Assembly: GCA_016916535.1 (NCBI GenBank)
Contig: CP070276.1
Coordinates: 1,240,001 to 1,304,000, forward strand
Length of the DNA: 64,000 nucleotides
Direction: 5' to 3'
DNA from: Dysgonomonadaceae bacterium zrk40
GTDB lineage: Bacteria; Bacteroidota; Bacteroidia; Bacteroidales; Dysgonomonadaceae
Under the pieces are notes generated by a model. The model did no database searches and was not told where the DNA came from. It saw only the letters and a list, made by a program, of their open reading frames with translations. Below, piece after piece: positions 16,309 to 30,112 of this stretch (position 1 is the first letter of the stretch; every line of letters starts with the position of its first letter). The position numbers and the translations under genes are program-made.

Positions 16309-17448
16309 ATGTTATCACGAAAAATAACTCTTCAGGATGCTGAAAGAGACAGCATTTTCCTTTGGGGTGCACGGCAAACCGGTAAAAGCACGTTGCTGAA
16401 AATGCAATTTCCCGACAAGCACTATATAGACTTGTTGAAATCGGATGAATTCGAGCGATACAACCGTCGTCCGGCGCTTTTACGCGAAGAACTCAGTTTA
16501 CTTCCCATAAACGAGTTGATTATTATTGACGAAATTCAGAAAATTCCTGCATTACTCGACGAAGTGCATTGGCTCATGAGCAATCGCAACCTTCGTTTCA
16601 TCCTGAGCGGCTCCAGTGCACGCAAGCTGCGGAGAAGCGACGTCAACCTGCTTGGTGGCAGGGCCATCCGAAAGCATCTCTATCCATTAGTGAGCACTGA
16701 GATTCCTGATTTTGACCTATTAAAAGCTTGCAACAACGGTATGCTGCCACGACATTATCTTGTGGAAGATGCAGGCAAACGACTTCAGGCTTACGTGGGC
16801 GATTACCTCCAACAAGAAATCAAAGCCGAAGCGCTTACCCGCAACCTCAACACTTTTTCACGGTTTATGGAAGTGGCTGCTCTTAGTAACGGTGAGATTG
16901 TAAATTACAACAACATTGCCACGGAATGTGGCATCAGTGCTCCGACTGTGAAGGAATATTTCTCCATTCTTGAAGAGACACTCATCGGATACATGATTCC
17001 GGCATTTACCCAAAAAGTAAAACGCAGGGTGATCCAGTCACCCAGGTTTTATTATTTTGATGTGGGTATCGCCAATTTCCTGCTCCAAAGAACTACGCTA
17101 AATCCGGGGTCACCGGAATTTGGGCACGCTTTCGAACACTTTATCTTACAGGAAATCATTGCCTACATCGGGTATTTCAAGCCGTTATTGAATTTATCGT
17201 ATTGGCGTACCACATCGGGTTACGAAGTAGATGCCATCATTGGCAATGCCGATTTTGCCATTGAAGTTAAATCTTCCACCGAAGTACAATCACATCATAC
17301 GAAAGGATTAAAAGCATTCTCAGAAGAATTTCCCGACGCCCGGCTCATCATCGTTTCATTGGATAAATATCCACGACGGACAAACAATGTGGATATCTAT
17401 CCTGCCACACAATTCCTTTCAAAGATGTGGAACGGCGATTTCTTTTGA
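16309..17448 (+). CDS. AAA-family ATPase with DUF4143 domain
   Basis: A 379-residue protein with an N-terminal ATPase (AAA_14 type). Walker A is GARQTGKST (about 20-28), Walker B LIIIDEIQKIP (about 70-80), and a sensor-like ILSGSSARKLRR follows. The C-terminal DUF4143 domain contains a nuclease-fold-like pattern, EVDAIIGN then AIEVKSS (about 300-325), as in PD-(D/E)XK enzymes. Proteins of this family are abundant and variable in Bacteroidetes genomes, and their cellular role is not settled. The gene stands alone between the rpoC terminator and the TPR regulator, behind tandem repeats that probably control it. I see no partner toxin or antitoxin. Confidence 0.85.
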   Translation: MLSRKITLQDAERDSIFLWGARQTGKSTLLKMQFPDKHYIDLLKSDEFERYNRRPALLREELSLLPINELIIIDEIQKIPALLDEVHWLMSNRNLRFILSGSSARKLRRSDVNLLGGRAIRKHLYPLVSTEIPDFDLLKACNNGMLPRHYLVEDAGKRLQAYVGDYLQQEIKAEALTRNLNTFSRFMEVAALSNGEIVNYNNIATECGISAPTVKEYFSILEETLIGYMIPAFTQKVKRRVIQSPRFYYFDVGIANFLLQRTTLNPGSPEFGHAFEHFILQEIIAYIGYFKPLLNLSYWRTTSGYEVDAIIGNADFAIEVKSSTEVQSHHTKGLKAFSEEFPDARLIIVSLDKYPRRTNNVDIYPATQFLSKMWNGDFF

Positions 17449-17478
17449 TATTCCACCAGATGATGCTTCGGCATATTT

Positions 17479-17509
17479 TTTGACAAATCCGCATTTTCAA
17501 CTAATTTAG
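17479..17509 (+). promoter_or_regulatory. Promoter of the TPR-HTH regulator
   Basis: TTTG (17479-17482), 19 nt, TAATTTAG (17502-17509); one mismatch to TAnnTTTG. The predicted start, near 17516, is only about 11 nt before the ATG, giving an almost leaderless mRNA. Confidence 0.6.
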
Positions 17510-17526
17510 CGCCATATATCAATCGA

Positions 17527-19254
17527 ATGAAAGCTGCGCGCAATTCTCACCTCCCGGTGTGGATCATCATCATTTGGCTGGCACTGGCCTCTTGCTCCAA
17601 CCCGCAACCTGAAGCTGTCACGTTATTGAAAGCGGCCGAACAGCTGGCAGATAGCTGTCCCGACAGTGCTCTGCAATTGATCGACTCGATTTTTTATCCG
17701 GAGAAGAGTTTTAACAAAAGGGATTACATGCGCTATTGGGTGACACGTGTGCAGGTCCGGTATAAAAACTACCTGGCGGTAGATGAAGATACCCTCATAT
17801 TCAAGGCCGGGGATTATTTTACAAAACACTCCAATGATCCGGTGAAAAGCACTTTGGCCTGTTTTTACAGCGGCTGTGTCTATCGTGAACAAGGGAATAA
17901 GGAGCAGGCAATGGAGCTTTATAAAGATGCTGAAACATATGCAGTGAAGACATCCGACGTAGATCTGCAGGGACTGGTGCAGTACAATATGGGCGACTTG
18001 CTGGCAGAACAAGGGTTGTACGATCAGGCACTGATCAACTATCAAAAGGCAGAGAGCTTCTATGCTCTATCTCCGGTGAATGCAATAGAGAAGCAGACCC
18101 GATGTTTGAGTGCAACGGGCAGGATGTTTCTACTTTCGGGGCAACAGGAGAGTGCCTTTGCTGACATGCACAAAGGTTTTGAGCTGGCTCTTACCACGGA
18201 AAACGATGCGTTGAAAAGTTTACTCGCACAGAATCTAAGTGTTTTTTATGCTGAAACAGCGCAACCAAATGAAGCGATCAAATACTTACGCCAATCCTAT
18301 ATGCTCAACAAAGACAGCACAAAAGCTCTCCGCTATTATCTGAATTTTGCTGAAGCATATGCTGGAATTGGGCAAACCGACTCTTGTAGTTATTATTCAG
18401 ATATATTGGCACAAAAAATTGAGACAAACGATAAGCTCCCTTTAAAAGCCGCTGCCTACTTTTTTCTATCCACACAAGCCAAGAAGAATCACAATTATAA
18501 TCTGGCATTCAATTACCAACAAAAATATGTACAGCTCGTGGAAAAAATAACCCAGGAAAGACTTCAACAGTCGGTCTATGAGGTACAACAGAAATACGAC
18601 TACAATAAACAACAGAACAGATACAATCTTCAGTTGATGCACCGGCAACGTCTTATCATCATCTTTATCTCATTCTTTTTGCTGGTCAGCCTCATTGCAC
18701 TCTTCCTTCTCCGACGTATTGTCATTCAAAAAAACAGGCTAATAAGTATACAAAATACGGTGCAAACACTGAGTAAGACAGCAAAAGACCTGCTGAAACG
18801 GCAGAATGCAACCAATGAAAAAGAGGTACAGCAAAGAGAAAGTTTACTTTGGAAATTTAATGTGTTGTATAAATCATCCTTGTTAAAAGCTGAACTGCAA
18901 CAATTTGATCAGATGGATACAAAAAATGCCATTGCGCGCTTTGACGAAATTGTATATGGTAAGAATCATCCCTCACAATGGAATAAGTTAGTGGATACAA
19001 TCGATGAAATGCACCCCGGACTTTCATCATTTACACGGTCTACCTATCCTCAATTCACAGAGACCGAATTCAAAGTTTGCCTGTTGTCCTATACCGGATT
19101 ACCAAGTAAGGAAATAGCCCTTCTAATTGACCAAAGTGTACATACGGTGAACATGACACGTAGCCGTATCCGTCAAAAAATGGGTCTAAAAGAAGCGGGA
19201 GCCGATTTCAACACACATTTAAAGAAGAGATTCTCCGAAAACAGTATCTCCTAA
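17527..19254 (+). CDS. Membrane-anchored TPR regulator with C-terminal HTH (copy 1)
   Basis: A 575-residue lipoprotein-like regulator of the Bacteroidetes TPR-TM-HTH type. An N-terminal hydrophobic stretch ends in LASC (Cys 23, lipobox). About six TPR-like helical repeats follow (about 30-340), then a coiled segment, one transmembrane helix (about 375-396, LIIIFISFFLLVSLIALFLL), a cytoplasmic coil, and a LuxR/sigma-like HTH (about 511-555, TETEFKVCLLSYTGLPSKEIALLID). The periplasmic TPR part presumably senses a partner and the HTH acts on nearby promoters (inference). It is followed by a 50-aa exported peptide and a Wzy-TPR gene. A truncated second copy of its C-terminus lies at 26516-26726. 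It shares architecture with the regulator at 52.4-54.1 kb. Confidence 0.85.
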   Translation: MKAARNSHLPVWIIIIWLALASCSNPQPEAVTLLKAAEQLADSCPDSALQLIDSIFYPEKSFNKRDYMRYWVTRVQVRYKNYLAVDEDTLIFKAGDYFTKHSNDPVKSTLACFYSGCVYREQGNKEQAMELYKDAETYAVKTSDVDLQGLVQYNMGDLLAEQGLYDQALINYQKAESFYALSPVNAIEKQTRCLSATGRMFLLSGQQESAFADMHKGFELALTTENDALKSLLAQNLSVFYAETAQPNEAIKYLRQSYMLNKDSTKALRYYLNFAEAYAGIGQTDSCSYYSDILAQKIETNDKLPLKAAAYFFLSTQAKKNHNYNLAFNYQQKYVQLVEKITQERLQQSVYEVQQKYDYNKQQNRYNLQLMHRQRLIIIFISFFLLVSLIALFLLRRIVIQKNRLISIQNTVQTLSKTAKDLLKRQNATNEKEVQQRESLLWKFNVLYKSSLLKAELQQFDQMDTKNAIARFDEIVYGKNHPSQWNKLVDTIDEMHPGLSSFTRSTYPQFTETEFKVCLLSYTGLPSKEIALLIDQSVHTVNMTRSRIRQKMGLKEAGADFNTHLKKRFSENSIS

Positions 19255-19372
19255 AACAGCCCAATTCTTAAATATTCCCCATCGCACTTATATCCTCATT
19301 TTTTAACACGCACAATGTGTGCCGTTTACCTGAATCAAAATGTTAAACCACTTATACCTGACTTTTCACCTA

Positions 19373-19403
19373 TTGACCGGTTAATTTTTCTTTTGTACGT
19401 TTG
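19373..19403 (+). promoter_or_regulatory. Promoter of the 50-aa peptide / Wzy-TPR operon
   Basis: TTG (19373-19375), 20 nt, TACGTTTG (19396-19403), an exact -7 match. The predicted start is near 19410, about 30 nt before the peptide ATG at 19440. The peptide is therefore the first gene of the transcript. Confidence 0.65.
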
Positions 19404-19439
19404 TCACAATAATTCTATTCAACAAATCAATCTTCACCA

Positions 19440-19592
19440 ATGAAACAACACTTTTTTTTATTTATGATTGCAGGAATCCTATTTATTCCTATTCCCATGT
19501 ATGGATATGCAAATACTCAATCAATGTTTTGTAGTACCCAAACAATGGAAAGCACAGATCTTCCTTTCAACTTGCTTTTAATTTGGACATAA
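19440..19592 (+). CDS. Small exported peptide, 50 aa, unknown
   Basis: A short reading frame starting MKQHFFLFMIAGILFIPIPM, with a Lys-started hydrophobic core and a likely signal-peptidase site after YGYA (residue 24). It leaves a mature peptide of about 26 residues with one Cys (NTQSMFCSTQTMESTDLPFN, then a hydrophobic LLLIWT end). It has its own consensus promoter, and its stop overlaps the TTG that opens the Wzy-TPR frame, which suggests translational coupling. I do not recognise the family. The position right after a regulator and before a polymerase/ligase-like membrane protein suggests a secreted signal or substrate (inference). It could also be a leader peptide that only sets Wzy translation. 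Confidence 0.5.
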   Translation: MKQHFFLFMIAGILFIPIPMYGYANTQSMFCSTQTMESTDLPFNLLLIWT

Positions 19593-21433
19593 AAACAGCC
19601 CTAGTGAAACATATTGTAAAACATATCCCCTCTTTCTACCTGTTAACTCTTTTTGCAGGAGCGCTTTTCTTTATTCCTGCTATTTTCGTAAACAGGTTTA
19701 CAACCGCCCCGGCATTGTGGATGCAGGTCGGAATAGGTATAGGTATAGCAGTATATGTTTTCTCGGCAAAAAGACGGATCCCTCTTCCCCCTAAAGGATA
19801 TATCCTTTTAATGACAGCATGGGCAATTTATCATTTATGGCAAAATCAGGGCAATATTGAAAACACAATAACTATTATTACGCTTATCTCTGGTTTCTTT
19901 CTGTTCTATGCAATCTGTTCGCATTTGAAGGATAAAGGGGTGATATTTGTCCTTTTCACATTTTTAGCACTGGTACTTTCCTTATGGGGATTGGCCCAAT
20001 TTTCTGGACTGATGCCATCATACCATGGTTCGTTCGCAGTGACCGGACCATTCGATAATCCCGCCGGCATATCGGCTTCGCTCGCACTTCTGTTACCTTT
20101 TGCATTATACGGGTGCCTGCAAAGAAAACAGCGCGTAATCGCAATTATTGTCGTATGCCTGATTGTTACCGTCATCATATTATCACGGGCACGGGCAGCT
20201 GTCTTGGCAGCTGTTATCATTCTCATCTTCTTTTTTATCCGGTTATTGAGGGAGCGAAATATAAAACTGCTTTCTCTGCATTATACTGCTATAACCGTAA
20301 GTTGTCTTTTATTGCTTGTCGGACTGTTTGTTGCTAAAAAAGATTCAGCCAGCGGAAGATTGTTCATCTGGCAATGTTCGACAAAACTTATATCCCGCAA
20401 GCCGATATCCGGATATGGAGGGAATGGTTTCACAGCTAATTACATGAACGAACAAGCAACATATTTTACAAGATATCCCGACAGCAAGTACGTGAATCTT
20501 GCCGACAATGTACGCCATCCGTTCAACGAATTTTTAAAATGGACGATAAATTACGGTATGGCAGGATTATGCCTGATGTTATTATTGGTCGCTATCCCGT
20601 TATGGATTTCCCGAAAAACGGATTCTCCGGAGTTGTTTTATATCCGTTTAAGTCTTTTCTCTATAGGTATCTGTGCGTTTTTTTCCTATCCGCTCAACTA
20701 TCCGTTTATCCGGATCATGGTAATGTTTCTCCTTGCATCCACATTAGCTTCCAATCCTCAAAAAAGTATCACCTCAAGAATTGGTTATTTTACTAAAGGG
20801 ATAGTCCTGATGTTTTCATTAGGATTACTTAGCGCGACCACTTACCAGGCTATTTATGAACGCGAATGGTATAAGATAGCCCATAAATCGTTAAGGGGTG
20901 AAACAGCGCAGATGTTACCCCGGTATAAATCGCTTTATGCACATTTGTACCGCAAAGACCTTTTCCTTTATAATTATGCTGCGGAGTTGAATGTAGTGGG
21001 GCATTACAAAGAAAGCCAGCAAATCGCGTGTGAATGCGATAGTCTTTGGGCTGATTATGACCTGCAAATGCTGATGGCGGATAATTGCCTGCAATTAAAG
21101 CAATACAGCGACACAGAAAACTATCTGGAAAAAGCGGCGGCTATGTGTCCTGTTAAATTTATGCCGTTATACCGGTTAACCGAACTTTACCTGGAAACCG
21201 GGCGAAAAGAGGACGCACGAGTATTGGCCGAAAAGATACTGGACAAGCAAGTAAAGATCCCTTCTCTGGTCATAAGCAGTATTAAAAGTAAAATGCGAAA
21301 CTTATTGAATGAACTGGACAGTTTGAATGATTCACCACAATTAATTGAATCCGATATGAAACCGACAACTATTTCCTCATGGCAGGATTGCCTTTTGGAT
21401 CCCCGGATTCCAAGGGCACTCCTGCCTACCTGA
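19583..21433 (+). CDS. O-antigen ligase/Wzy-like polytopic protein with C-terminal TPRs
   Basis: The frame opens with TTG at 19583; an in-frame GTG at 19604 (MKHIVKHIPSFYLLTLFAG) is an alternative start, and no ATG is available. It is about 616 residues. Roughly ten hydrophobic helices (about 10-400) include the Wzy_C region with FDNPAGISASLALLLPF, ILSRARAAVL and GYGGNGFTANYM, features of O-antigen ligases and oligosaccharyl polymerases. TPR-like repeats follow (about 440-590). Such enzymes join glycans to lipid or protein acceptors at the periplasmic face. There are no glycan biosynthesis genes nearby, so an O-antigen role is doubtful. The last ~15 codons (SWQDC...LLPT) recur at 27.3 kb. It overlaps the 50-aa peptide gene by 10 nt. 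Confidence 0.75.
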   Translation: MDIKTALVKHIVKHIPSFYLLTLFAGALFFIPAIFVNRFTTAPALWMQVGIGIGIAVYVFSAKRRIPLPPKGYILLMTAWAIYHLWQNQGNIENTITIITLISGFFLFYAICSHLKDKGVIFVLFTFLALVLSLWGLAQFSGLMPSYHGSFAVTGPFDNPAGISASLALLLPFALYGCLQRKQRVIAIIVVCLIVTVIILSRARAAVLAAVIILIFFFIRLLRERNIKLLSLHYTAITVSCLLLLVGLFVAKKDSASGRLFIWQCSTKLISRKPISGYGGNGFTANYMNEQATYFTRYPDSKYVNLADNVRHPFNEFLKWTINYGMAGLCLMLLLVAIPLWISRKTDSPELFYIRLSLFSIGICAFFSYPLNYPFIRIMVMFLLASTLASNPQKSITSRIGYFTKGIVLMFSLGLLSATTYQAIYEREWYKIAHKSLRGETAQMLPRYKSLYAHLYRKDLFLYNYAAELNVVGHYKESQQIACECDSLWADYDLQMLMADNCLQLKQYSDTENYLEKAAAMCPVKFMPLYRLTELYLETGRKEDARVLAEKILDKQVKIPSLVISSIKSKMRNLLNELDSLNDSPQLIESDMKPTTISSWQDCLLDPRIPRALLPT

Positions 21434-21540
21434 AGCAAGGCGGTATAATATATGTTTCTATTCCAGCAAGCCGCCTGCCTTTGAGAAAAATTGATTTGAT
21501 AATTGATTTTGGAATAGGAGTAAAGAATAAAAAAAAGTTA
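21434..21540 (+). repeat. Shared leader downstream of Wzy-TPR, copy 1
   Basis: From the Wzy stop to about 21530 the sequence is closely matched at 27367-27463. It includes a GGCGG...CCGCC hairpin (21439-21474) and the AT-rich block TTGATTTGATAATTGATTTT. The cargo gene begins about 30 nt later. It may hold the cargo promoter or a partial terminator (inference). Confidence 0.55.
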
Positions 21541-21561
21541 TACAAATTAAAATGATTTAAC

Positions 21562-22287
21562 ATGAAACAGTTTTTGAAAAACGGGACTTTTAGTTTAGGA
21601 GTTATATTGCTAAGTATTATTACCTTCGGCCTTATGGTGCAAAGTTGTCAAATGGAAGATGATACGTTGTTATTAAATGAAAATTTAGAATATTCGGGAT
21701 ATTTGGATATCAATGTTTATAATAACACCAAAGCTTTTACTGAACATGAACTCAAGATAATAACTGAAGCGTTCATGCGAATTGATAAATATTTATCAGA
21801 AAAAAATGATATTGCTTTTATTTTGGGTAATAAGCGAGATGTGAGAATGAGTTTAAATATTTCTGAAAATCTATTCGAGTATTTGCTTCTTGGGATTAAT
21901 ATGGATAATCCAGTTCGAAACACTCAAATTAGGTTAAGGTCTGGGGCTGAGGTAGAGAGCCAGAGTGGTCCCGGCTATTATATGAGGTCTGTTAAATTAT
22001 CTCATTCTGAAACAATAGCATTAATGAATGGGATGCAATCAGCTGCTTCAGATGCAAGTTTCTGGGGTGGAACTGGTGCTGGTATCGCAGGTGGTCTTTC
22101 AGGAATAGTTGGTGGCACTGCGGCAAGTGTACTCATTGGGGGTAGATTTTATCTTGAAGGATTGCATTGGGCTAATATGGAAAATAACTATTTGCAAGGA
22201 AGCCAAAACGGTGCTGAATATATTGAAACGACGATATACTCCCCAACCGGAATGTCATACACATCGCATCAATTCATATACCATTGA
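21562..22287 (+). CDS. Lipoprotein with glycine-rich hydrophobic segment
   Basis: A 241-residue protein that I do not recognise. A signal sequence ends in MVQSC (Cys 29), so it is probably lipidated. The middle (about 45-160) is mixed alpha/beta without an obvious domain. Residues 168-195 form a Gly/Ala-rich hydrophobic run (SFWGGTGAGIAGGLSGIVGG) with GxxxG spacing, like the membrane-active segment of some class II bacteriocins and glycine-zipper proteins. The C-terminal 45 residues are polar. A 3-TM protein follows after 1 nt. A membrane-active effector with its immunity partner is one reading, and a structural glycine-zipper lipoprotein another. Base composition is AT-rich compared with the core genes. 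Confidence 0.6.
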   Translation: MKQFLKNGTFSLGVILLSIITFGLMVQSCQMEDDTLLLNENLEYSGYLDINVYNNTKAFTEHELKIITEAFMRIDKYLSEKNDIAFILGNKRDVRMSLNISENLFEYLLLGINMDNPVRNTQIRLRSGAEVESQSGPGYYMRSVKLSHSETIALMNGMQSAASDASFWGGTGAGIAGGLSGIVGGTAASVLIGGRFYLEGLHWANMENNYLQGSQNGAEYIETTIYSPTGMSYTSHQFIYH

Positions 22288-22288
22288 T

Positions 22289-22534
22289 ATGGAAAAGTTG
22301 AAGAGGACAAGAGTTGTCTTGTGGGTACTAGCAATTGTATTATCTACGATATATGTATATGTGTATGTTGGTAATCCACTTAAAAAAGAGTTTGATATTG
22401 GCATTTTTGGGCTCATATTCCCGCTATTATTAATTTCAGCACAATTATTGTTAAGAAAAAACGAATTAAACAAAGAAATGTCGCTAATAATCTCTTCGGG
22501 ACTATTAATCGTTTTCTATCTTGTTTTCTTATAA
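22289..22534 (+). CDS. Small three-helix membrane protein, unknown
   Basis: 81 residues from the ATG at 22289, one base after the preceding stop, so the pair is coupled. A Lys/Arg start (MEKLKRTR) is followed by three hydrophobic helices (about 9-27, 37-54, 65-81). Size and layout resemble bacteriocin-immunity-like proteins, but no family is recognisable. An IS982 copy lies directly at the stop codon. Without that element the next sequence is already an IS1595 remnant, so an older insertion may have shortened the 3' end. Confidence 0.55.
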   Translation: MEKLKRTRVVLWVLAIVLSTIYVYVYVGNPLKKEFDIGIFGLIFPLLLISAQLLLRKNELNKEMSLIISSGLLIVFYLVFL

Positions 22535-23555
22535 ACGTGAGTTCGGGATAAAAACAGTATAAAAAAGTTGTGATACAGGGAGATTATTTGTATATTTATA
22601 ACTGTTAATCAAATATATAACAAAAATAAGCCCTATGATCACAACAGACAAAGTTATAGAAATATTTTGTGTTGCCGATGATTTTTGTGAAGAATATGTG
22701 AATGAAATTCAGAATCATTAACTTCAAGCTGGTAGTACTAAAAGGAGAAAAAGGAAAAAGGAAATATCTCATAACGTGATCATTGCTGTGATGATCTGTT
22801 TCCACTGCGGAACCTTTCATAATTTAAAGAATTATTACCTGTTATATATTTGTCAGCACATGAAGAGTTATTTTCCAACTGCTGTTTCCTACAACCGTTT
22901 TGTTGAGTTGCACCCCCGGGTGATTGTACATTTCACCAAACTGTTTGGATTTGGTGAATGCACAGGCATTACATATGTGGATAGCACTCCGATTAAAATA
23001 TGTCATAACAAGCTTATACACTCCAATAAAGTATTCAGGGACCTGGTCCAAAGAGGGAAAAGTACGATGGGCTGGTTTTTTGGCTTCAAGCTTCATATAG
23101 TCTGTAACGAAAAGGGTGAATTGCTGAATTTTTCTCTCACAAAAGGTAATGTAGACGATAGGATCCCTGATGTAATCAATGTCCTTACCAAAGATCTTTT
23201 CGGCAAACTTTGTGCTGACAAGGGTTACATCAGGACTAAACTCTTCGAGACGCTTTTTGACCAGGGAGTTCATTTAGTGACCGGTATACGCTAAAATATG
23301 AAAAATTCCCTGATGTCATTCCGCGACAAGATTCTCTTACGCAAAAGATCCGTAATTGAGTCCATCAATGATGAGCTGAAGAATATCTGTCAGGTAGAAC
23401 ATTCAAGGCATCGTTCCACACATAATTTCATCATGAACATAAATGCTGCATTGATGGCATATTGTTTCTTTCCCAAAATGCCTTAAATCAAACTTGAAGT
23501 AGAAAAGTCAAGTCAATTAACCATTTGGGGATAAAATTTTATCCCGGACTCACGT
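22535..23555 (+). mobile_element. IS982-family insertion sequence
   Basis: A 1.02-kb element bounded by inverted repeats: ACGTGAGTTCGGGATAAAA at 22535-22553 and its near-perfect complement ending at 23555. It is flanked on both sides by TAA (22532-22534 and 23556-23558), a 3-bp target duplication. The left TAA is the stop codon of the upstream small membrane protein. The transposase frame has two in-frame stops, so this copy is probably inactive by itself. Confidence 0.85.
22635..23486 (+). pseudogene. IS982 transposase with two in-frame stops
   Basis: A single continuous reading frame of 284 codons, the expected size, is interrupted by TAA at 22719-22721 (codon 29) and TAA at 23292-23294. 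The frame is otherwise preserved: no indels, with the same phase across all three segments. IS982 features include ITYVDSTPIKICHNKL (first catalytic Asp), TMGWFFGFKLHIV, LCADKGYI (second Asp) and [14 protein letters not shown] (the Glu). Two point nonsense changes without frameshifts suggest recent inactivation. Confidence 0.85.
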
Positions 23556-23558
23556 TAA

Positions 23559-24267
23559 GGAGTCATTTCCTACAGAAGAAATTCGCCGGCAATTAGGGCA
23601 TAAACGTTATCAACCTATTTGGGAGATGGTCTATAAGTTACGAGACGTAATGGGCAAGCGTGATGATGAATACTCACTTTCAGGACAGATAGAACTTGAT
23701 GATGCTTTTTTTACAACTGAGATTCCCGATGATCAAAAGAAGAAACCTTTGAAGCGCGGGTGTGGCAGTCAAAATAAAACAAAAGTACTGGTAATGTGAG
23801 AAAGTAGTTTTCAGGATAACCCGGGGAAGGGACAAAAACCCAAACGGGTAGGTTATCTGAAAATGAAAGTCATAAGCGATTTAAAAGCCGACACAATTAC
23901 ACCGATTGTCAAAGAGCGAATTGATGAGAGGTCGGATTTACTAACCGATGATTACACATCTTATGGAGACTTGAAGCATCACGTGGAATCCCACACATCA
24001 AAGGTGATAAAACCGGAAGAGCTTGAAACGGTCTTGCCTTGGGTGCATGTGGCAATTGGTAATGCAAAACGTTTATTGTTGGACGTACATCATAAATTAA
24101 AACCGGAATATTTACAATATTATCTAAATGAGTTCTGCTATCAATTCAACCGAAGATTCTTCGGTGAGAAGCAATTCGATAGGCTGGTTTTAGCAGCCGT
24201 AACGTATCAATGGATTTCAGAACGAAAACATATAATAGGACTCATTGCGGATAATCATTCAATCTAA
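23559..24267 (+). pseudogene. IS1595-family transposase remnant
   Basis: A 5'-truncated transposase lacking the zinc-ribbon start. The remaining frame reads FPTEEIRRQLGHKRYQP, then the catalytic stretch SGQIELDDAFF, a TGA stop at 23797-23799, LTDDYTSYGDLKHH, and VAIGNAKRLLLDVHHKLKP with the Asn expected in the DDN triad. The C-terminus (YQFNRRFFGEKQFDRLVLAA) is intact. The IS982 copy inserted next to its truncated 5' end, so this remnant is the older of the two. Confidence 0.85.
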
Positions 24268-24324
24268 TTTCAAAGTCATGATAGCGACATTGCTGACGAC
24301 AAATAACATCATAATATTTGTAAA

Positions 24325-26343
24325 ATGAGTGCGAAAAATAGACAGCATCAATTTTTATTCACGAATATCATATCATATAAAAAGTGTTTTGATAAACTTT
24401 TGTTGTTGATATTCATTATATGCATTTTAACTTCCTGTGTGAAGGATACTTATAGCAGCAGACTAGCTGCTGCCTTAGAGCTGGCAGGGCCAAACAGATC
24501 GGAGCTTGAAAAGGTTCTGGAATATTATTCTCAAGAAAAAAGCGACTCGCTAAAACTCAAAGCCGCAAAGTTCCTTATCTGCAACATGGATGTTCATTTT
24601 TCATACAAAAGTAGGACTTGGGATATCTTTCAGATGGAATTGGACTCTCTTTTCAGGACGGAAAACCAGCCCAAGAACCTCGAACAGGGTTTGGAGGTTT
24701 TATATGATAAATATGCTAACAGATTAACTGCTGACTTGGAGTTCGTTTCTGATCTGCGAACCATGCGTGCTGATTTTCTCATCCGGAGTATCGATGCGGC
24801 TTTTTCCAGATGGCAAAATCCTTACTCACGTCATTTGACCTTTGAGGATTTCTGTGAGTATATCCTTCCATATCGTGCCGGAAAAGAATCATTGAATGAT
24901 TGGAGGCAGGAATTTGGGACTAATTTCATTCCTTCGCTCTATGAACGGTTGACAAAAGAAAAGGATTCAATCAGTGCCATTGACTTGAGTAACGCGATCA
25001 AATCATATCCCTATAGCAATCTCTCCACCACTGTAAGCAAACTACCCGATTATAACGCCCATACCCTCTCCATAATGAGAATAGGTAACTGTAGACAATA
25101 TACCCTACAAGGATTGTTGGCTGCCAGATATTTAGGTGTTCCGGTTGCAATCGACTTCACACCACAGTGGGCAACCCGCAGCATGGGTCACGAATGGAAT
25201 GCTTTCATCACCCGTGAGGGAAAACCTCTAAGTTTTGGCATAGGCGATTACTGTGAGCTTGGCGAACATATAGAGTTTATTCCGGATAGAATCCCACCCA
25301 AGATATACCGTCAGACCTTTGCCAAACAAAAGAAAAGTCTTGCAATGATTAGAGGCCGTGAAGCAATTCCTCAAACTCTGGCATCTCCATGCATGAAAGA
25401 TGTGACAATGGATTATTATTCATGCGTTGATGTGCCCATTAAGTTTGACTTCAAGGCTCCGGGAAGAAATAAGTTTTCCTATCTGGCCGTTTTTGACAAT
25501 AGTAACTGGATTCCCGTATCCTGGGCACCCAGTAAAAAGGGAATGTCACTGTTTGAGAATCTCAACAGGAATATTGTATGCCTGCCGGGTTACTATGATC
25601 ACGAAGAATTTATACCCGCGGCCCCACCGGTCATGATTGACAGTATCGGAAACATCAAGCACTTAAAAGTTGACTTACAGAATAAACAGGATATGGTGCT
25701 GAGCAGGAAATATCAAACCGGTTTGGTTGAGGGGCATTGCAAGGAAATGGTTGGAGGCAGGTTTCAGGGAGCAAACAGGAGTGATTTTTCTGATGCGGTG
25801 GACCTGTATGTGATTGAAGATGTACCGGAATCGAGCTATCAAATTGTAGAGATACATTGCGAGGATTCTTTTAACTATTTCAGGTACCTTGCTCCGGAGA
25901 ATTCCATTGGCACCATTTCAGAGTTGGAAGTGTTTGAGGCGGGTGCCAGCGAAAAGCTATCGGGGAATATGATTGGGACGGAACAAGATTTAGTTGATAT
26001 CTCTAAAGAGATGGCCTTTGATGGCAATCCGCTTACCTCTTTCAGGAAGTACGGATTTCCTGAGGTGTGGGTGGGATTGGAGTTTGACAGCCCTAAAAAA
26101 ATAGAGAAAATTGTATTTCTGCCGGGAAATGATGACAATTGCATTCGAGATGGCGAACTGTATGAGTTGTTCTATTGGAATAATAAATGGGTATCGTTGG
26201 GTAAACAATTGGGATCGAGTGAAACATATAAATTGAAATATGAAAACGTTCCTACGAATACGCTTTATCTTTTACGAAATCTGACGAAAGGTAAGGAGGA
26301 ACGTGTTTTTACATACGAGAAAGGAAAACAAGTATGGTGGTAA
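24325..26343 (+). CDS. Transglutaminase-like lipoprotein with C-terminal discoidin-like domain
   Basis: 672 residues. A hydrophobic N-terminus ends in LTSC (Cys 38), so it is probably a lipoprotein. A helical region (about 50-230) precedes a transglutaminase-like core with a candidate triad Cys 256 (IGNCRQYT), His 289 (GHEWNAF) and Asp 308 (GIGDYC). The C-terminal part (about 480-672) has a beta-sandwich pattern like F5/8 type C domains (AFDGNPLTSFRKYG, VWVGLEFDSPKKIEKIVFLP). Such Bacteroidetes proteins are thought to act on surface peptides or glycans; the substrate here is unknown. It lies between insertion-sequence remnants, on the same strand as the two regulator/Wzy copies, and may be accessory cargo of that island (inference). 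Its own promoter is not clear. Confidence 0.8.
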   Translation: MSAKNRQHQFLFTNIISYKKCFDKLLLLIFIICILTSCVKDTYSSRLAAALELAGPNRSELEKVLEYYSQEKSDSLKLKAAKFLICNMDVHFSYKSRTWDIFQMELDSLFRTENQPKNLEQGLEVLYDKYANRLTADLEFVSDLRTMRADFLIRSIDAAFSRWQNPYSRHLTFEDFCEYILPYRAGKESLNDWRQEFGTNFIPSLYERLTKEKDSISAIDLSNAIKSYPYSNLSTTVSKLPDYNAHTLSIMRIGNCRQYTLQGLLAARYLGVPVAIDFTPQWATRSMGHEWNAFITREGKPLSFGIGDYCELGEHIEFIPDRIPPKIYRQTFAKQKKSLAMIRGREAIPQTLASPCMKDVTMDYYSCVDVPIKFDFKAPGRNKFSYLAVFDNSNWIPVSWAPSKKGMSLFENLNRNIVCLPGYYDHEEFIPAAPPVMIDSIGNIKHLKVDLQNKQDMVLSRKYQTGLVEGHCKEMVGGRFQGANRSDFSDAVDLYVIEDVPESSYQIVEIHCEDSFNYFRYLAPENSIGTISELEVFEAGASEKLSGNMIGTEQDLVDISKEMAFDGNPLTSFRKYGFPEVWVGLEFDSPKKIEKIVFLPGNDDNCIRDGELYELFYWNNKWVSLGKQLGSSETYKLKYENVPTNTLYLLRNLTKGKEERVFTYEKGKQVWW

Positions 26344-26377
26344 AATAATCTCACAGAACTCGGTACCCTTACAAAAA

Positions 26378-26470
26378 ATGAATCAACAAGACAAAACAAA
26401 TAGATCCATAATCAGGGATACTGTAATGCTGTTGCTTGCGGCAGTAGTGCTTATATCTTACTATCACTGA
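26378..26470 (+). CDS. Possible 30-aa hydrophobic peptide
   Basis: Starts 34 nt after the transglutaminase stop. It has a polar start (MNQQDKTNRSIIRD) and one short hydrophobic helix (TVMLLLAAVVLISYYH). Its length, position and single-span character make it a candidate small membrane peptide, but a chance frame is just as possible. Confidence 0.25.
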   Translation: MNQQDKTNRSIIRDTVMLLLAAVVLISYYH

Positions 26471-26515
26471 ATTGAAAGTCCGAATTTGTTTACGCTTATG
26501 ATGAATATGTTCGGT

Positions 26516-26726
26516 TTTTACACGGTCTACCTATTCTCAATTCACAGAGACCGAATACAAAGTTTGCCTGTTGTCTTATGCCGGATTATCAAGCAAGGAA
26601 ATAGCCCTTCTCATTGACTAAAGTGTACATACAGTAAACATGGCACGTACCGGTATCCGCCAAAAGATGGGTCTAAAAGAAGCGGGAGCCGATTTCAACG
26701 CGTATATAAAGCAAAAATTTCGAGAC
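26516..26726 (+). pseudogene. Decayed C-terminus of a second TPR-HTH regulator (copy 2)
   Basis: Closely matches the 3' end of the copy-1 regulator from about 19030 to 19240, with scattered substitutions. The translation keeps FTETEYKVCLLSYAGL, SSKEIALLID, RQKMGLKEAGADFN and a basic end. An in-frame TAA replaces the Gln codon after LLID. There is no TPR or transmembrane part upstream. Homology stops at the IS256 inverted repeat at 26727. Confidence 0.85.
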
Positions 26727-27273
26727 TGTAAATTAAACTGTGTCAAAGAATAGAACATTTTTTTTACTTTTACACAACAGTTTACATTATGGAAGATTTT
26801 GATTACAAGTCCTTTCAAGCCAAGGCGCTGGAGCAGTTAAAAGCCAGCAAGCCTCTTTTAGGAAAAGACGGTGCATTTGCCCCGTTACTGTAGAACCTTC
26901 TAAATACTGCACTGGAGGGTGAGATGGATGTCCAGATGGATGGAGGAGAACCTGGGTAACCGGGTTTCAGCCGATACCATCAGTGCCATTACCGACAGGG
27001 TGCTGCCTGAACTTCAATCCTGGCGGGACAACTGGCATAAATTATCGGCCTATTTCCAGTATACTGACGCCAACCGGCGACTGATCTACACTACCAACAC
27101 GGTGGAGGGATATCATCGTCAGATTCGCAAGGTGACAAAGAACAAAGGGGTTCGATTAGGGGGTCGACACCTAACTGTTTTTGACCAACAAAAACTCAGG
27201 TCTTAGCATTACCCATTAGAAAAAAGGTGCCAAATTAACTATAAAATTAAAACCTGACAAAGTTCTATTTACA
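26727..27273 (+). mobile_element. Internally deleted IS256-family element
   Basis: The ends are imperfect inverted repeats: TGTAAATTAAACTGTGTCA (26727-26745) and TGACAAAGTTCTATTTACA (27255-27273). At about 550 bp it is well under half the usual IS256 length. The element now fills the place where the Wzy-TPR gene of copy 2 should be. I see no clean target duplication, which fits deletion of adjacent sequence. Confidence 0.75.
26789..27206 (+). pseudogene. IS256-family (Mutator) transposase remnant
   Basis: Starts MEDFDYKSFQAKALEQLKASK and KDGAFAPLL, followed at once by a TAG stop. It then jumps in another frame to the middle of the protein (RVSADTISAITDRVLPELQSW) and to the C-terminal part (WRDNWHKLSAYFQYTDANRR, then IYTTNTVEGYHRQIRKVTK). 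At least two internal deletions and a frameshift are present. The catalytic Asp region is absent, so it is not functional. Confidence 0.85.
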
Positions 27274-27288
27274 CAACCTAAATTCCTT

Positions 27289-27366
27289 ATGAATCCAACA
27301 ATTACCCCCTCATGGCAGGACTGCATTTGGGATCTTCGGACTCCGGGGGAACTCCTGCCTACCTAA
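27289..27366 (+). pseudogene. Residual 3' end of the Wzy-TPR gene (copy 2)
   Basis: Twenty-five codons from an ATG to TAA encode MNPTITPSWQDCIWDLRTPG plus ELLPT. They align with the last codons of the copy-1 Wzy protein (SSWQDCLLDPRIPRALLPT). The rest of the gene is gone. It could be translated as a short peptide, but the likeliest status is a gene remnant. Confidence 0.65.
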
Positions 27367-27480
27367 GGCAAGACGGCATAATATGTTTTCTATTCTGGCA
27401 TGGCCGCCTGCCTTTGTGAAAAAATTGATTTGATATTTGATTTTGGAATAGGTGTAAAGAATAATATAATTCAAAAGAAC
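27367..27480 (+). repeat. Shared leader downstream of Wzy-TPR, copy 2
   Basis: Matches 21434-21530, including the GACGG/GGCCGCC arms of the hairpin and the block ATTGATTTGATATTTGATTT. The match fades just before the cargo start at 27505. Both copies therefore join the same leader to unrelated cargo genes. Confidence 0.7.
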
Positions 27481-27504
27481 TTAAACAAAAACAACTAACA
27501 TAAT

Positions 27505-27786
27505 ATGAATTTAAAAGAACAACTCAGAATAAGCTGGACGTTTGTTGTCGCTGCTGGAATATTTATTTTATTTACCGTGCTTTCGACGACCGGGATATAC
27601 GATGTAAGTAATATTATTTTCGGGGTGGCTAAAATACTCTTGGCTGTAACAATTACGTATACGTGCGTCAAAGTATCAAAAAGTTTACATAAGAAAGGCA
27701 AATACTCCGCCTCCACATGGTTCACATACGGAGCAGGGCTCCTTTCCGGATTATGGCTTTATGATGCCATTCAATATTTATTTTAA
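27505..27786 (+). CDS. Small three-helix membrane protein, unknown (copy-2 cargo)
   Basis: 93 residues with three hydrophobic stretches (about 10-31, 35-56, 72-93) and Lys-rich loops; no recognisable family. It occupies the same place behind the shared leader as the lipoprotein/3-TM pair of copy 1, but shows no sequence likeness to either. It may be an orphan immunity-like or other accessory membrane protein (inference). No gene follows on this strand before ppk. Confidence 0.55.
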   Translation: MNLKEQLRISWTFVVAAGIFILFTVLSTTGIYDVSNIIFGVAKILLAVTITYTCVKVSKSLHKKGKYSASTWFTYGAGLLSGLWLYDAIQYLF

Positions 27787-27867
27787 AACATCCCTTGAGA
27801 TTTATCGAATGAGTTTACTTGTCTGATAAATCGAAGGTGATAGATAGTGTTCAACTGGGTCGTATAT

Positions 27868-27973
27868 GGCTCTAATATGGCACTAATATCGTTCGTATCT
27901 CGTTCTAATCTCGTTCTAATATGGTTCTAATATGGTTCTAATAGATTAGAACGAGATTAGAGCCAGTTACGAG
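27868..27973. repeat. 11-bp tandem repeat hairpin element, copy 1
   Basis: Seven consecutive 11-bp units of the form (C/G)GTTCTAAT(A/C)T occupy 27868-27944; the first three are degenerate. Two units in inverted orientation follow (ATTAGAACGAG, ATTAGAGCCAG, 27945-27966) and then TTACGAG. The single-stranded form can fold into a hairpin with several alternative registers. A second copy lies at 61349-61453. It sits between a convergent small membrane protein gene and ppk. Confidence 0.85.
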
Positions 27974-28033
27974 TGATATAAAAAGAATATAAAGTTCAGA
28001 TTAAGAGCTGGCTTATTGGAAACATTGTATCTA

Positions 28034-30112
28034 CTATCCGGTAGATCTCTTCAGATACTCATAAATCGCATGCTGCGCGCGTACAGGAGGGGCATCGGGT
28101 GAAGCCAACTCACTTTTAAAGACATTGTTCAGTTGTTCATCTACCCAAACGGCGCTCTGGTTGTCCTCCAGCTGGATCTTCAAAATATCGATGATCTGGC
28201 GCTTTAGCGGCTCGGCATAGACCGGGAAGGCCACCTCTATTCGGCGGTGCAGGTTGCGAGTCATCCAATCGGCTGAAGTGAGGTAGATTGTCTCCTTGCC
28301 TCCGTTCAGGAAGTACCAGACACGCGCATGCTCCAGGTAGGCATCAACGATGCGTGTCACCCTGATATTTTTGCTGTAGGGCTGGTTGGGTACCAGGCAG
28401 CAGATGCCACGGATGATCAGATCAATCTTCACGCCCGCCTCGCTTGCACGATAGAGCGCATTGATCATCCCCTTGTCCTCCAGGCTGTTCATCTTCAGGA
28501 TGATATATCCTTCGCCACCCTGTTTCACCTGCGTGATCTCCTGCTCAATCATCCCGTGAATGGCGGGCAGCATGTTGAACTGAGTCACCAGCAGATGTTT
28601 GAAGTCGTGCATGTATGGTTTCCCCTCCAACACGCGGAACACCTCGTCGATGTCGCGGATGATCTCCTTGTTGGAGGTGAGCAACCCCTTGTCGGAATAG
28701 ATGCGGGCGGTTTTTTCGTTGAAGTTGCCGGTACCCAGGTAGGCATACCCCTTTATCGGATCATCCGGGTCGTTGCTTCTCTTGCGCACGTAGGCCAGCT
28801 TGGCATGCACCTTCAGTCCCGGCAGGCTGTAGATGATCTTCACCCCCGCCTGTTGCATCAGTTCGGAGGAGAAGTAGTTGTTCTCCTCATCGAAGCGGGC
28901 TTTCAGCTCCACGAAGACGGTCACCTTCTTGCCATTCTTGGCAGCACTGATCAGGCTGTTGATCACGGCAGAGTTCTCCGCCACACGATATTGGGTCACC
29001 TTGATCTCGAGCACCTTCGGATCGAACGCAGCCTGCATGAGGAAGCGCAACAGATAGTCGAACGACTGGTAGGGGAAGTGGAGCAGCAGATCCTGGCGAC
29101 GCAGCACCCGCAGGATTGAGTTGTTGGCCTCCAACTCCGGAACCCGCAGGGGATGCGGCAAAGGTTGACGGAGGCTATCACCAACCGGGTTGGGCAGCTT
29201 CATGAGGTCTGCCAGGTTGAGGTATCGTCCCGAGGGGAGCAACTCCTCCTCCTCAATCTCGTAGGCCTCGCAGAGGTGCTTCAGGAAGTAGTCCGGCATA
29301 TCCTTGTCGTACTGAAAACGGGTCACGGCACCTATCTTCCGTTTGCGCACCTTGCGCAGGATCCGCTCGGCAATATCTTTCTGATCTTCGTTTTCGAGAG
29401 AGAAATCGGCATCGCGAGAAATCTTGATGCTATAGCAATCTACGATCTGATAGCCGGGGAAGACGCTCGACATGTTCGCCTTGATCAGGTCGTCAATAAA
29501 GATGATGTAGTGGTTCCCGCCAAATGAGGGGAGCTCCACGAACCGCGGCACCTTGGTGAAGGGAATCTTCATGATGGCGTAGGTGTAGGAAGGGCGGTTG
29601 GAACCCTTCTTCTTTTTTTTGAGCAGACTCACCACCTGATAAATGCGACCATCCTGAATGAAAGAGTGGATGTCATCCTTCAGGATAATCATCGGCTGCA
29701 GGTAGGGGAACACTTCCTCGTTGAAGTACTTCTCCACGAAAGCCCGGTGGAAAGGCTCCACAGCATCGGTCTGGTAGAGGATGATGCCGTTGCGCCGGAG
29801 CTCAGGGAGAATCATCTCGTTGAAGATGGCGTAATACTCCTTCTCATGAGCCGTCACCTCGCGGTTGATCTCTATGATGGTCTGAAGCGCTTCCTCCACC
29901 GACTCATCACGCTTGATGCTCTCAAGAAGGGAGCTGTGATAGCCCGACACGCGGATTTTGTAGAACTCCTCCAGGTTTGACGAGTAGATGGAGAGGAACT
30001 TGATCCTCTCGTAGATGGGCAGCCGCTCATCCTTCGCCTCCAGGAGTACCCGGTAATTGAAAGAGAGCCAGCTGATATCGCGTTTGAAATAGGCGTAATT
30101 GTTATATTCCAT
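28034..30112 (-). CDS. ppk1: Polyphosphate kinase 1
   Basis: A complete 692-residue PPK1 that reversibly transfers the gamma phosphate of ATP to polyphosphate. The N-terminal signature is RDISWLSFNYRVLLEA and SSNLEEFYKIRVSG. The two phospholipase-D-like catalytic domains contain the autophosphorylated His in GLKVHAKLAYVRKR (about 436) and the second His in LEHARVWYF. It is transcribed leftwards. CAAAAATA at 30144-30151 (TATTTTTG on the minus strand) is a likely -7 box about 30 nt before the start. No partner exopolyphosphatase is seen in the window. Confidence 0.97.
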   Translation of the reverse strand: MEYNNYAYFKRDISWLSFNYRVLLEAKDERLPIYERIKFLSIYSSNLEEFYKIRVSGYHSSLLESIKRDESVEEALQTIIEINREVTAHEKEYYAIFNEMILPELRRNGIILYQTDAVEPFHRAFVEKYFNEEVFPYLQPMIILKDDIHSFIQDGRIYQVVSLLKKKKKGSNRPSYTYAIMKIPFTKVPRFVELPSFGGNHYIIFIDDLIKANMSSVFPGYQIVDCYSIKISRDADFSLENEDQKDIAERILRKVRKRKIGAVTRFQYDKDMPDYFLKHLCEAYEIEEEELLPSGRYLNLADLMKLPNPVGDSLRQPLPHPLRVPELEANNSILRVLRRQDLLLHFPYQSFDYLLRFLMQAAFDPKVLEIKVTQYRVAENSAVINSLISAAKNGKKVTVFVELKARFDEENNYFSSELMQQAGVKIIYSLPGLKVHAKLAYVRKRSNDPDDPIKGYAYLGTGNFNEKTARIYSDKGLLTSNKEIIRDIDEVFRVLEGKPYMHDFKHLLVTQFNMLPAIHGMIEQEITQVKQGGEGYIILKMNSLEDKGMINALYRASEAGVKIDLIIRGICCLVPNQPYSKNIRVTRIVDAYLEHARVWYFLNGGKETIYLTSADWMTRNLHRRIEVAFPVYAEPLKRQIIDILKIQLEDNQSAVWVDEQLNNVFKSELASPDAPPVRAQHAIYEYLKRSTG

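Follow-up and report, generated by a model that had tools for sequence, protein, structure and literature searches.

What kind of system carries the same leader sequence of about 110 nucleotides (nt) twice and places unrelated genes behind it? The question is raised by a locus of Dysgonomonadaceae bacterium zrk40 (genome of 3.47 Mb, contig CP070276.1), which we analyzed within a stretch of 64,000 nt, hereafter the window. Here, a regulator with tetratricopeptide repeats (TPR), a membrane protein resembling O-antigen ligases (Wzy-TPR), the leader, and a small set of downstream "cargo" genes occur in one intact and one fragmentary copy. The Bacteroidales, dominant in the human gut, fight by means of secreted toxins, many of which probably still await identification. 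Among the options offered by a first-pass annotation of this DNA (signalling, antagonism, or immunity), antagonism accompanied by immunity fits best, and its idea of polymorphic cargo is supported: we consider it probable that the locus encodes polymorphic surface-lipoprotein bacteriocins with membrane immunity proteins, exchanged on a fixed chassis.

The starting observation, that the regulator C-terminus, the wzy end, and the leader recur in copy 2, was borne out by pairwise alignment. The regulator segment is a direct repeat of 203 nt at 89% identity (19030-19232 and 26517-26719), the wzy tail with the leader forms a second repeat of 109 nt at 78% (21348-21456 and 27281-27389), and a third of 66 nt at 83% follows (21486-21551 and 27420-27485); wzy tail and leader are also covered by a single BLAST match of 178 nt at 84%. 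A query with 21380-21560 found two places only in the zrk40 genome at E <= 0.001, both in the window. Behind the two leaders the genes are indeed unrelated, with a lipoprotein (21562-22287) and an 81-amino-acid (aa) protein with three transmembrane (TM) segments (22289-22534) in copy 1 and a 93-aa 3-TM protein (27505-27786) in copy 2. The term duplicated locus applies best to the regulator fragments, which are each other's best match at 89%, the next being 76% in locus L058 of genome G031 (14 other loci compared). It applies less well to leader 1, which is closer to one leader of G031 (93%) and to the leaders of G038 (89%) and G001 (84%) than to leader 2 (82%). The copies are separated by a gene for a transglutaminase-like lipoprotein (24325-26343), copy 2 is interrupted by an IS256 remnant, and together they are probably not a simple tandem duplication. 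Because the leaders, unlike the regulator fragments, are not each other's closest match, the copies have mixed histories, and these are better explained by repeated exchange than by one duplication.

The leader itself folds into two conserved hairpins. Ten copies were found by BLAST and aligned over about 110 nt, and the alignment was then extended to 18 of 19 copies, excluding that of G057. In these 18 leaders, bases pair in 90.6% of the cells of the 24 predicted pairs, and 11 of the 24 show changes on both sides, with the caveat that hairpins and RNA model both come from the ten BLAST-found copies, so the structure was derived from part of the sequences used to test it. None of 500 shuffles matched the pairing and double-change values, one of 500 matched the covariation score, and 11 of 500 matched the number of pair types; shifting the partner strand by 1-3 columns lowered pairing to 37-53%. 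A search of Rfam 15 with positions 17000-28500 (E <= 1) returned no family match to the leader. With the RNA model, 11 of 101 family genomes, from 4 of 15 genera, proved to contain 19 copies between them; two further weak matches at the wzy stop in L024 and L027 (E 0.15-0.21; 4.3 and 1.2 in a second search) were not counted. A promoter-like TGATTTTG box lies 3' of the leader, and since it is exact at just 5 of 15 sites, a promoter behind the leader is offered as a suggestion only.

No single fixed gene follows the leader, which agrees with the first-pass idea of exchanged cargo: across the 11 family genomes, the 19 leaders precede 12 gene families, and 9 families stand behind the 15 leaders that remain without four weak copies. 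Genes were assigned from open reading frame (ORF) maps of all 19 sites, BLAST groups, and checks without signal peptides; lipoproteins are called by pattern and TM segments by a hydropathy window throughout, and several of the loci compared come from the ends of contigs in draft or metagenome assemblies. The cargo type of the window (TOXA) and a second type (TOXB) each occupy three sites, as does a family of 272-aa lipoproteins (intact at one site; at the other two a 3' remnant precedes an intact exported protein of 260 aa). Lipoproteins of 132, 214, 175, and 327 aa occur at one site each, and the other single cases are an exported protein of 206 aa, TM proteins of 93 aa (copy 2 of the window) and 109 aa, a thioredoxin-like protein, and the transglutaminase-like protein. 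Outside the count of 12 families, the fourth leader of G078 precedes a weak remnant resembling the 327-aa lipoprotein (E 3e-4). The lipoprotein of L030 was at first grouped with the window cargo and is counted apart because no match remained once its signal peptide was removed. An intact or nearly intact predicted lipoprotein is encoded directly behind 11 of the 19 leaders, and each of the 11 has one to three acidic residues among the five that follow the cysteine, resembling the lipoprotein export signal that PMC5080379 describes for Bacteroidetes.

Variability extends into the cargo proteins. Cargo 1 of the window has the lipobox MVQSC, acidic residues after the cysteine, a pro-domain, and a hydrophobic C-terminal domain rich in glycine and alanine; it matched no Pfam family above cut-off and no NCBIfam model. 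A hidden Markov model (HMM) of the TOXA pro-domain, built without the signal peptide, matches L070 (E 7.9e-11), a lipoprotein that a member of a different family of the order encodes one gene away from a Wzy relative, and the HMM of the C-terminal domain does not. L070 shares the R-[LV]-[KR]-S-G junction of the window cargo and then continues into an unrelated C-terminus with a sub-threshold Pfam match to papain-fold toxin 1 (Gln_amidase, 15.3 bits versus a cut-off of 24.1). L071 gives a weak pro-domain match (E 0.008) and has an IRLKG junction followed by a different tail. In the TOXB pair L032/L055, identity is 78% on the N-terminal side of the junction and 44% beyond it, and the TM proteins downstream show no BLASTP match to each other at E 0.01. 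A conserved N-terminal part with a variable C-terminal domain is the organization of polymorphic toxins, and the variable tips would be the toxic domains.

The junction recurs among cargo that is otherwise dissimilar. Among lipoproteins between 90 and 450 aa in 60 loci (those <= 90 and >= 450 aa having been dropped beforehand), 16 of 172 contain R-[LIMV]-[KR]-[STN]-x-E; 300 shuffled runs gave 1.0 on average and at most 5, and the pattern is present in 1 of 343 other ORFs of the same size. These 16 are 15 cargo proteins and one C11 peptidase; the 15 fall into eight groups without mutual BLASTP match (E 0.01), although an HMM links the pro-domains of two of these groups, the window cargo and L070. 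One cargo class is recognizable from databases: the cargo of L032 scores 119 bits against the NCBIfam family "bacteriocin fulvocin C-related" (NF033852, cut-off 35), and a member is present in 6 of 295 genomes of the order sample. The mature fulvocin C peptide has 45 residues, eight of them cysteines, and the fulvocin-type C-termini that follow the junction have eight cysteines in 51-68 residues. L059 holds an array of cargo-TM units with wzy-tail remnants, as expected for cassettes gained and lost through recombination. Separately, a lipoprotein family found in L029 (867-1685), L059 (530-1402), and L066 (8417-9412) has a C-terminus that, by eye, we take to resemble JAB-type toxin domains; a conserved exported protein of 259-278 aa lies 3' of it in all three loci.

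Small membrane proteins follow much of the cargo. The 81-aa protein starts 1 nt after the stop of cargo 1, and 12 of 31 cargo genes or fragments have a 2-4-TM protein whose start lies within -46 to +24 nt of their stop. Three of the five fulvocin-type genes have a 4-5-TM protein behind them at -34 to +43 nt; what comes after cysteine-rich cargo is mostly more cargo or a thioredoxin-like protein. By arrangement, this agrees with polymorphic toxin systems, in which the immunity gene lies directly downstream and differs with the toxin. We take the 93-aa gene of copy 2 for an orphan immunity gene because a relative in L060 begins 4 nt after a lipoprotein-toxin C-terminus.

The chassis is less uniform than the term implies. 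The first-pass annotation spoke of a fixed chassis with swapped genes behind it; the swapping stands, but regulator and leader are fixed only within the genus and its near relatives, the regulator lying near 1 of 39 order-level wzy loci and the leader being present, among 393 genomes of an order sample that holds few of the family, in the zrk40 genome only. The regulator falls just below the GerE cut-off of 23.5 bits and, with 118.1 bits against NF053779 (cut-off 940), appears to be a distant relative of the NCBIfam BT3442 family. The Wzy_C domain of the window wzy lies above the Pfam cut-off of 31.7 bits, the product weakly matches the solved polymerase/ligase 7tpg (E 0.076), and alignment with relatives suggests a start at GTG 19604 rather than at TTG 19583 of the ORF list. 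Wzy-TPR relatives occur in 8 of 39 genomes of the genus and in 34 of the 393 order-sample genomes (27 of 207 genera, 52 places), with the zrk40 genome counted in both. Proteiniphilum acetatigenes has a related locus whose wzy is broken. At 24 of the 39 order-level loci a transglutaminase-like gene lies within 6 kb of wzy; also nearby are signal peptidase I (16), DUF1573 (10), propeller lipoproteins (10), and NVEALA (6), with signal peptidase, propeller, and NVEALA recognized by patterns of our own making. On these associations, the order-wide chassis is the Wzy-TPR protein with the transglutaminase-like lipoprotein, not the regulator or the leader. The transglutaminase-like lipoprotein of the window scores below cut-off for Transglut_core (16.0 bits) and F5_F8_type_C (17.1 bits), keeps a cysteine and a Gly-His in 6 of 6 sequences of its family, and has C-terminal domains that match the solved carbohydrate-binding module 2yb7 (E 7.9e-35).

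Plasmids carry the same association. Searches by protein found the transglutaminase-like protein in seven plasmid records and a fulvocin relative in one. The Bacteroides finegoldii plasmid NZ_OY725911.1 (L135, 8887-19864) encodes a transglutaminase-like protein (annotated as discoidin), DUF1573, a fulvocin relative, a TlpA-like protein, and an O-antigen ligase, at the end of whose gene a 75-aa homologue of the window's candidate immunity family immA starts (E 1.9e-8). A duplicated 90-aa TM protein was also seen on this plasmid. Plasmids of Phocaeicola vulgatus and P. dorei (L136, L137) carry NVEALA, six-bladed propeller, lepB, O-antigen ligase, and transglutaminase genes; no mention of the term NVEALA was found in the openly licensed literature searched. 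Because plasmids show both flavours of cargo, the Wzy neighbourhood holds secreted products of different kinds across the order.

We propose that the cassette lipoprotein would receive its lipid after a signal-peptidase-II signal, with an acidic export signal probably taking it to the outer surface. Its pro-domain would be joined through a short R-L-K/R-S-x-E junction to a variable, toxic C-terminal domain, which may be hydrophobic and Gly/Ala-rich, Cys-rich and fulvocin-like, papain-like, or of other kinds, and which would be freed by cleavage at or near the junction. Immunity would come from the small membrane protein encoded directly downstream. The leader, with its two hairpins and sometimes a promoter-like box after them, may end or insulate the upstream operon and give each cassette its own expression; as DNA common to unlike cassettes, it is also a likely recombination tract for their exchange. 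The Wzy-TPR protein and the transglutaminase-like lipoprotein would handle or mature the cargo, the latter being a candidate for maturation. In the window, cassette 1 would be a toxin-immunity pair, and cassette 2 would have decayed to an orphan immunity gene. Cleavage as the route of release is suggested by the junction and by BcpT of Phocaeicola, which, according to PMC9308784, is cut after arginine by C11 proteases. C11 proteins are present in the related loci L032 (by Pfam), L033, L031, and L065. We rejected a C11 peptidase as cargo activator in zrk40, whose genome gave no match to PF03415.

A bolder version, which we put forward tentatively and rate as rather unlikely, is an order-wide weapon-export module of the Bacteroidales, in which the Wzy-TPR protein and the carbohydrate-binding transglutaminase-like lipoprotein would display, attach to surface glycan, or mature any cargo that bears the junction, with cassettes made portable within one family by a new structured RNA that serves as insulator and recombination tract. 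Among the matches listed from the openly licensed literature, no description of a module combining Wzy-TPR and such cargo was found.

Several results weigh against the bacteriocin reading. With no C11 match in its genome, the best-precedented activating enzyme is missing from zrk40. Most cargo belongs to no database family in Pfam and NCBIfam searches, an AlphaFold2 model of cargo 1 from three sequences reached a predicted confidence (pLDDT) of 39 and was unusable, and in the window's own cargo family the C-terminus is barely less conserved than the pro-domain (21-31% versus 31-37%). The junction was first spotted by eye in the family loci, L024, and L026, before the order-level loci, the source of four of the cargo matches, entered the comparison; the strict pattern was set after a looser scan (24 of 237 versus 8.1 in shuffles, with many false matches), so its statistics are partly post hoc. 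TOXB and some other cargo have only a looser R-x-K-G junction, and the 272-aa family has neither form. Four of the 19 leaders are weak, at 39-54 bits (G100, G014 contig 55, G030, G057), two of them without most of the second hairpin, and 19 of the 31 cargo genes or fragments have no 2-4-TM protein at -46 to +24 nt. At order level, 15 of 39 wzy loci are without a transglutaminase-like gene within 6 kb, contig ends truncating some of them, and a considerable share of the loci have signal peptidase I or NVEALA instead of lipoprotein cargo.

Were the locus devoted to signalling, the TPR-HTH (helix-turn-helix) regulator would sense a secreted peptide as a pheromone, and the cargo lipoproteins would be peptide precursors or receptors. 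This is improbable in view of cargo that varies between close relatives and is in large part tightly paired with different TM proteins, and of fulvocin relatives annotated as bacteriocins, even though the regulator has a suitable architecture and NVEALA-type secreted peptides lie near some order-level wzy loci and accompany genes for O-antigen ligase and transglutaminase-like proteins on gut plasmids. The scarcity of the regulator at order level also speaks against signalling, as does the presumed peptide. The 50-aa ORF of copy 1 (19440-19592) has no Pfam match, its region (19200-19640) has no DNA match among the other loci compared, and on both grounds the gene is doubtful; in the first-pass inventory of copy 1, the regulator, Wzy-TPR protein, lipoprotein, and 3-TM protein hold, and this exported peptide is the item we would question.

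Ordinary decay and shuffling would make the cargo an assortment of surface lipoproteins moved by insertion sequence (IS) elements and homologous recombination, with the leader merely the conserved 3' end of wzy. We find this likewise improbable from the behaviour of the leader, which often lies 3' of a wzy tail, overlapping its stop, and elsewhere, with hairpins kept, follows different genes, one kind of them encoding a lipoprotein of 130-140 aa. Conservation at the stop is independent of codon positions, and a coding role for the leader was rejected: its invariant columns ignore the codon positions of the wzy frame, although some copies keep a second frame open. At 12 of 15 measured sites (of 19; the start in G038 is assumed, its first ATG lying at 88 nt) the leader ends 45-86 nt before the next start codon, and at the other three 146-162 nt before it. 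The IS982 and IS256 remnants, the wzy tails that hitchhike with many leaders, and the fragmentary regulator and wzy of copy 2 are what shuffling would leave, yet neither the junction motif nor the TM pairing is expected of assorted lipoproteins.

That the leader is instead a site-specific recombination site (attC-like and folded) or the end of an unknown mobile element that moves cassettes is very improbable, since the G-U pairs frequent in its hairpins favour an RNA over a DNA site, no genome has more than four copies and 90 of the 101 have none, several copies sit within old wzy tails, and no recombinase was noticed beside it (no systematic search was made), against which stand the two hairpins, the several copies in one locus with unlike genes behind them, and the insertion described below.

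Under the bacteriocin reading, the locus shares features with several known systems, compared here by description. The SitA/SitI system of myxobacteria is presented in PMC12288465 as polymorphic lipoprotein toxins with a cognate immunity gene directly downstream, at many loci and often on mobile elements; our cargo has the lipobox by pattern and the downstream neighbour by arrangement. SitA, according to the same paper, is delivered by TraA outer-membrane exchange, whereas here the acidic residues suggest surface display, and a shared junction and a Wzy/transglutaminase-like chassis are present. The lipobox toxins with a cystatin-like N-terminus (PMC12419801) likewise combine a lipobox, a conserved N-terminal domain, a variable C-terminal toxin, papain-like ones included, and linked immunity, whereas several unrelated pro-domains share one junction here. 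BcpT is, according to PMC9308784, a Bacteroidales toxin with a signal-peptidase-II signal, predicted to be on the surface, with a small downstream immunity gene; it differs in its length of 499 aa and its lipoprotein immunity, against smaller toxins and TM immunity candidates here, and in its C11 partner, which has no counterpart in zrk40. One class of Wzy-TPR-adjacent cargo belongs to the fulvocin C-related family and is so annotated on the B. finegoldii plasmid; the window cargo is not a member. Finally, the BT_3442-BT_3433 MACPF cluster of B. thetaiotaomicron, in the passages of PMC2954219 considered, begins with a TPR protein from the family to which the window regulator bears a distant resemblance, and has duplicated lipoproteins and a 3-TM protein; its cargo is MACPF and trefoil proteins, and those passages describe no O-antigen ligase or leader. 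The junction and the neighbour-gene pair provide a handle on cargo that lacks sequence similarity, on chromosomes and on gut plasmids alike. They make testable why O-antigen-ligase-like proteins stand beside bacteriocin genes and what cuts these lipoproteins, at a weapons-like locus whose relatives occur on plasmids of human gut bacteria.

The features of the locus are collected in Table 1.

Table 1. Features of the locus, in window coordinates, with the evidence for each.
Feature	Position	Strand	Evidence
Regulator, TPR-TM-LuxR-type HTH, copy 1, intact	17527-19254	+	TPR_12 33.6 bits; GerE 23.0 bits
50-aa ORF with signal-peptide-like N-terminus, doubtful gene	19440-19592	+	ORF only
Wzy_C/O-antigen-ligase-like membrane protein with C-terminal TPR	19604-21433	+	Wzy_C 65.6 bits
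Leader copy 1 with its pair of conserved hairpins; overlaps the wzy stop	21374-21485	+	RNA model matches; fold z -3.6
Cargo 1, 241-aa predicted lipoprotein, candidate bacteriocin	21562-22287	+	lipobox pattern
Junction motif RLRSGAE in cargo 1, candidate processing site	21931-21951	+	motif count
81-aa 3-TM protein, candidate immunity protein (family immA)	22289-22534	+	arrangement, homology
IS982 transposase remnant	22776-23486	+	IS982 155.6 bits
Further transposase-like remnant	23626-24267		recognized by eye only
672-aa transglutaminase-like lipoprotein with discoidin/carbohydrate-binding-module-like C-terminal domains	24325-26343	+	sub-cut-off Pfam matches, conserved residues
Regulator gene of copy 2, 3' fragment	26517-26719	+	89% identity to 19030-19232
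IS256-family transposase remnant within copy 2	26919-27206	+	61 bits (whole-protein cut-off 150)
Last wzy codons of copy 2	27281-27366	+	direct repeat
Leader copy 2	27307-27418	+	103 bits with model R1, 97.1 with R2
93-aa 3-TM protein of copy 2, candidate orphan immunity gene	27505-27786	+	relative in L060

The whole block (~17465-28029) is an insertion of about 10.6 kb relative to G031, between an AAA gene (AAA-DUF4143) and ppk, which in that genome are about 60 bp apart. The IS982 and transposase-like remnants occupy the slot 5' of the transglutaminase-like gene, where L032 and L033 have the C11 peptidase. Between the locus and ppk, positions 27886-27979 form an AT-rich imperfect inverted repeat with repeated TCTCGTTCTAAT units, and 27885-27980 gives a weak Rfam match to a plant microRNA family that is probably due to chance and unrelated to the leader. 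A related leader-toxin locus (L058) lies nearby in G031, between a phosphoesterase gene and a LysE gene.

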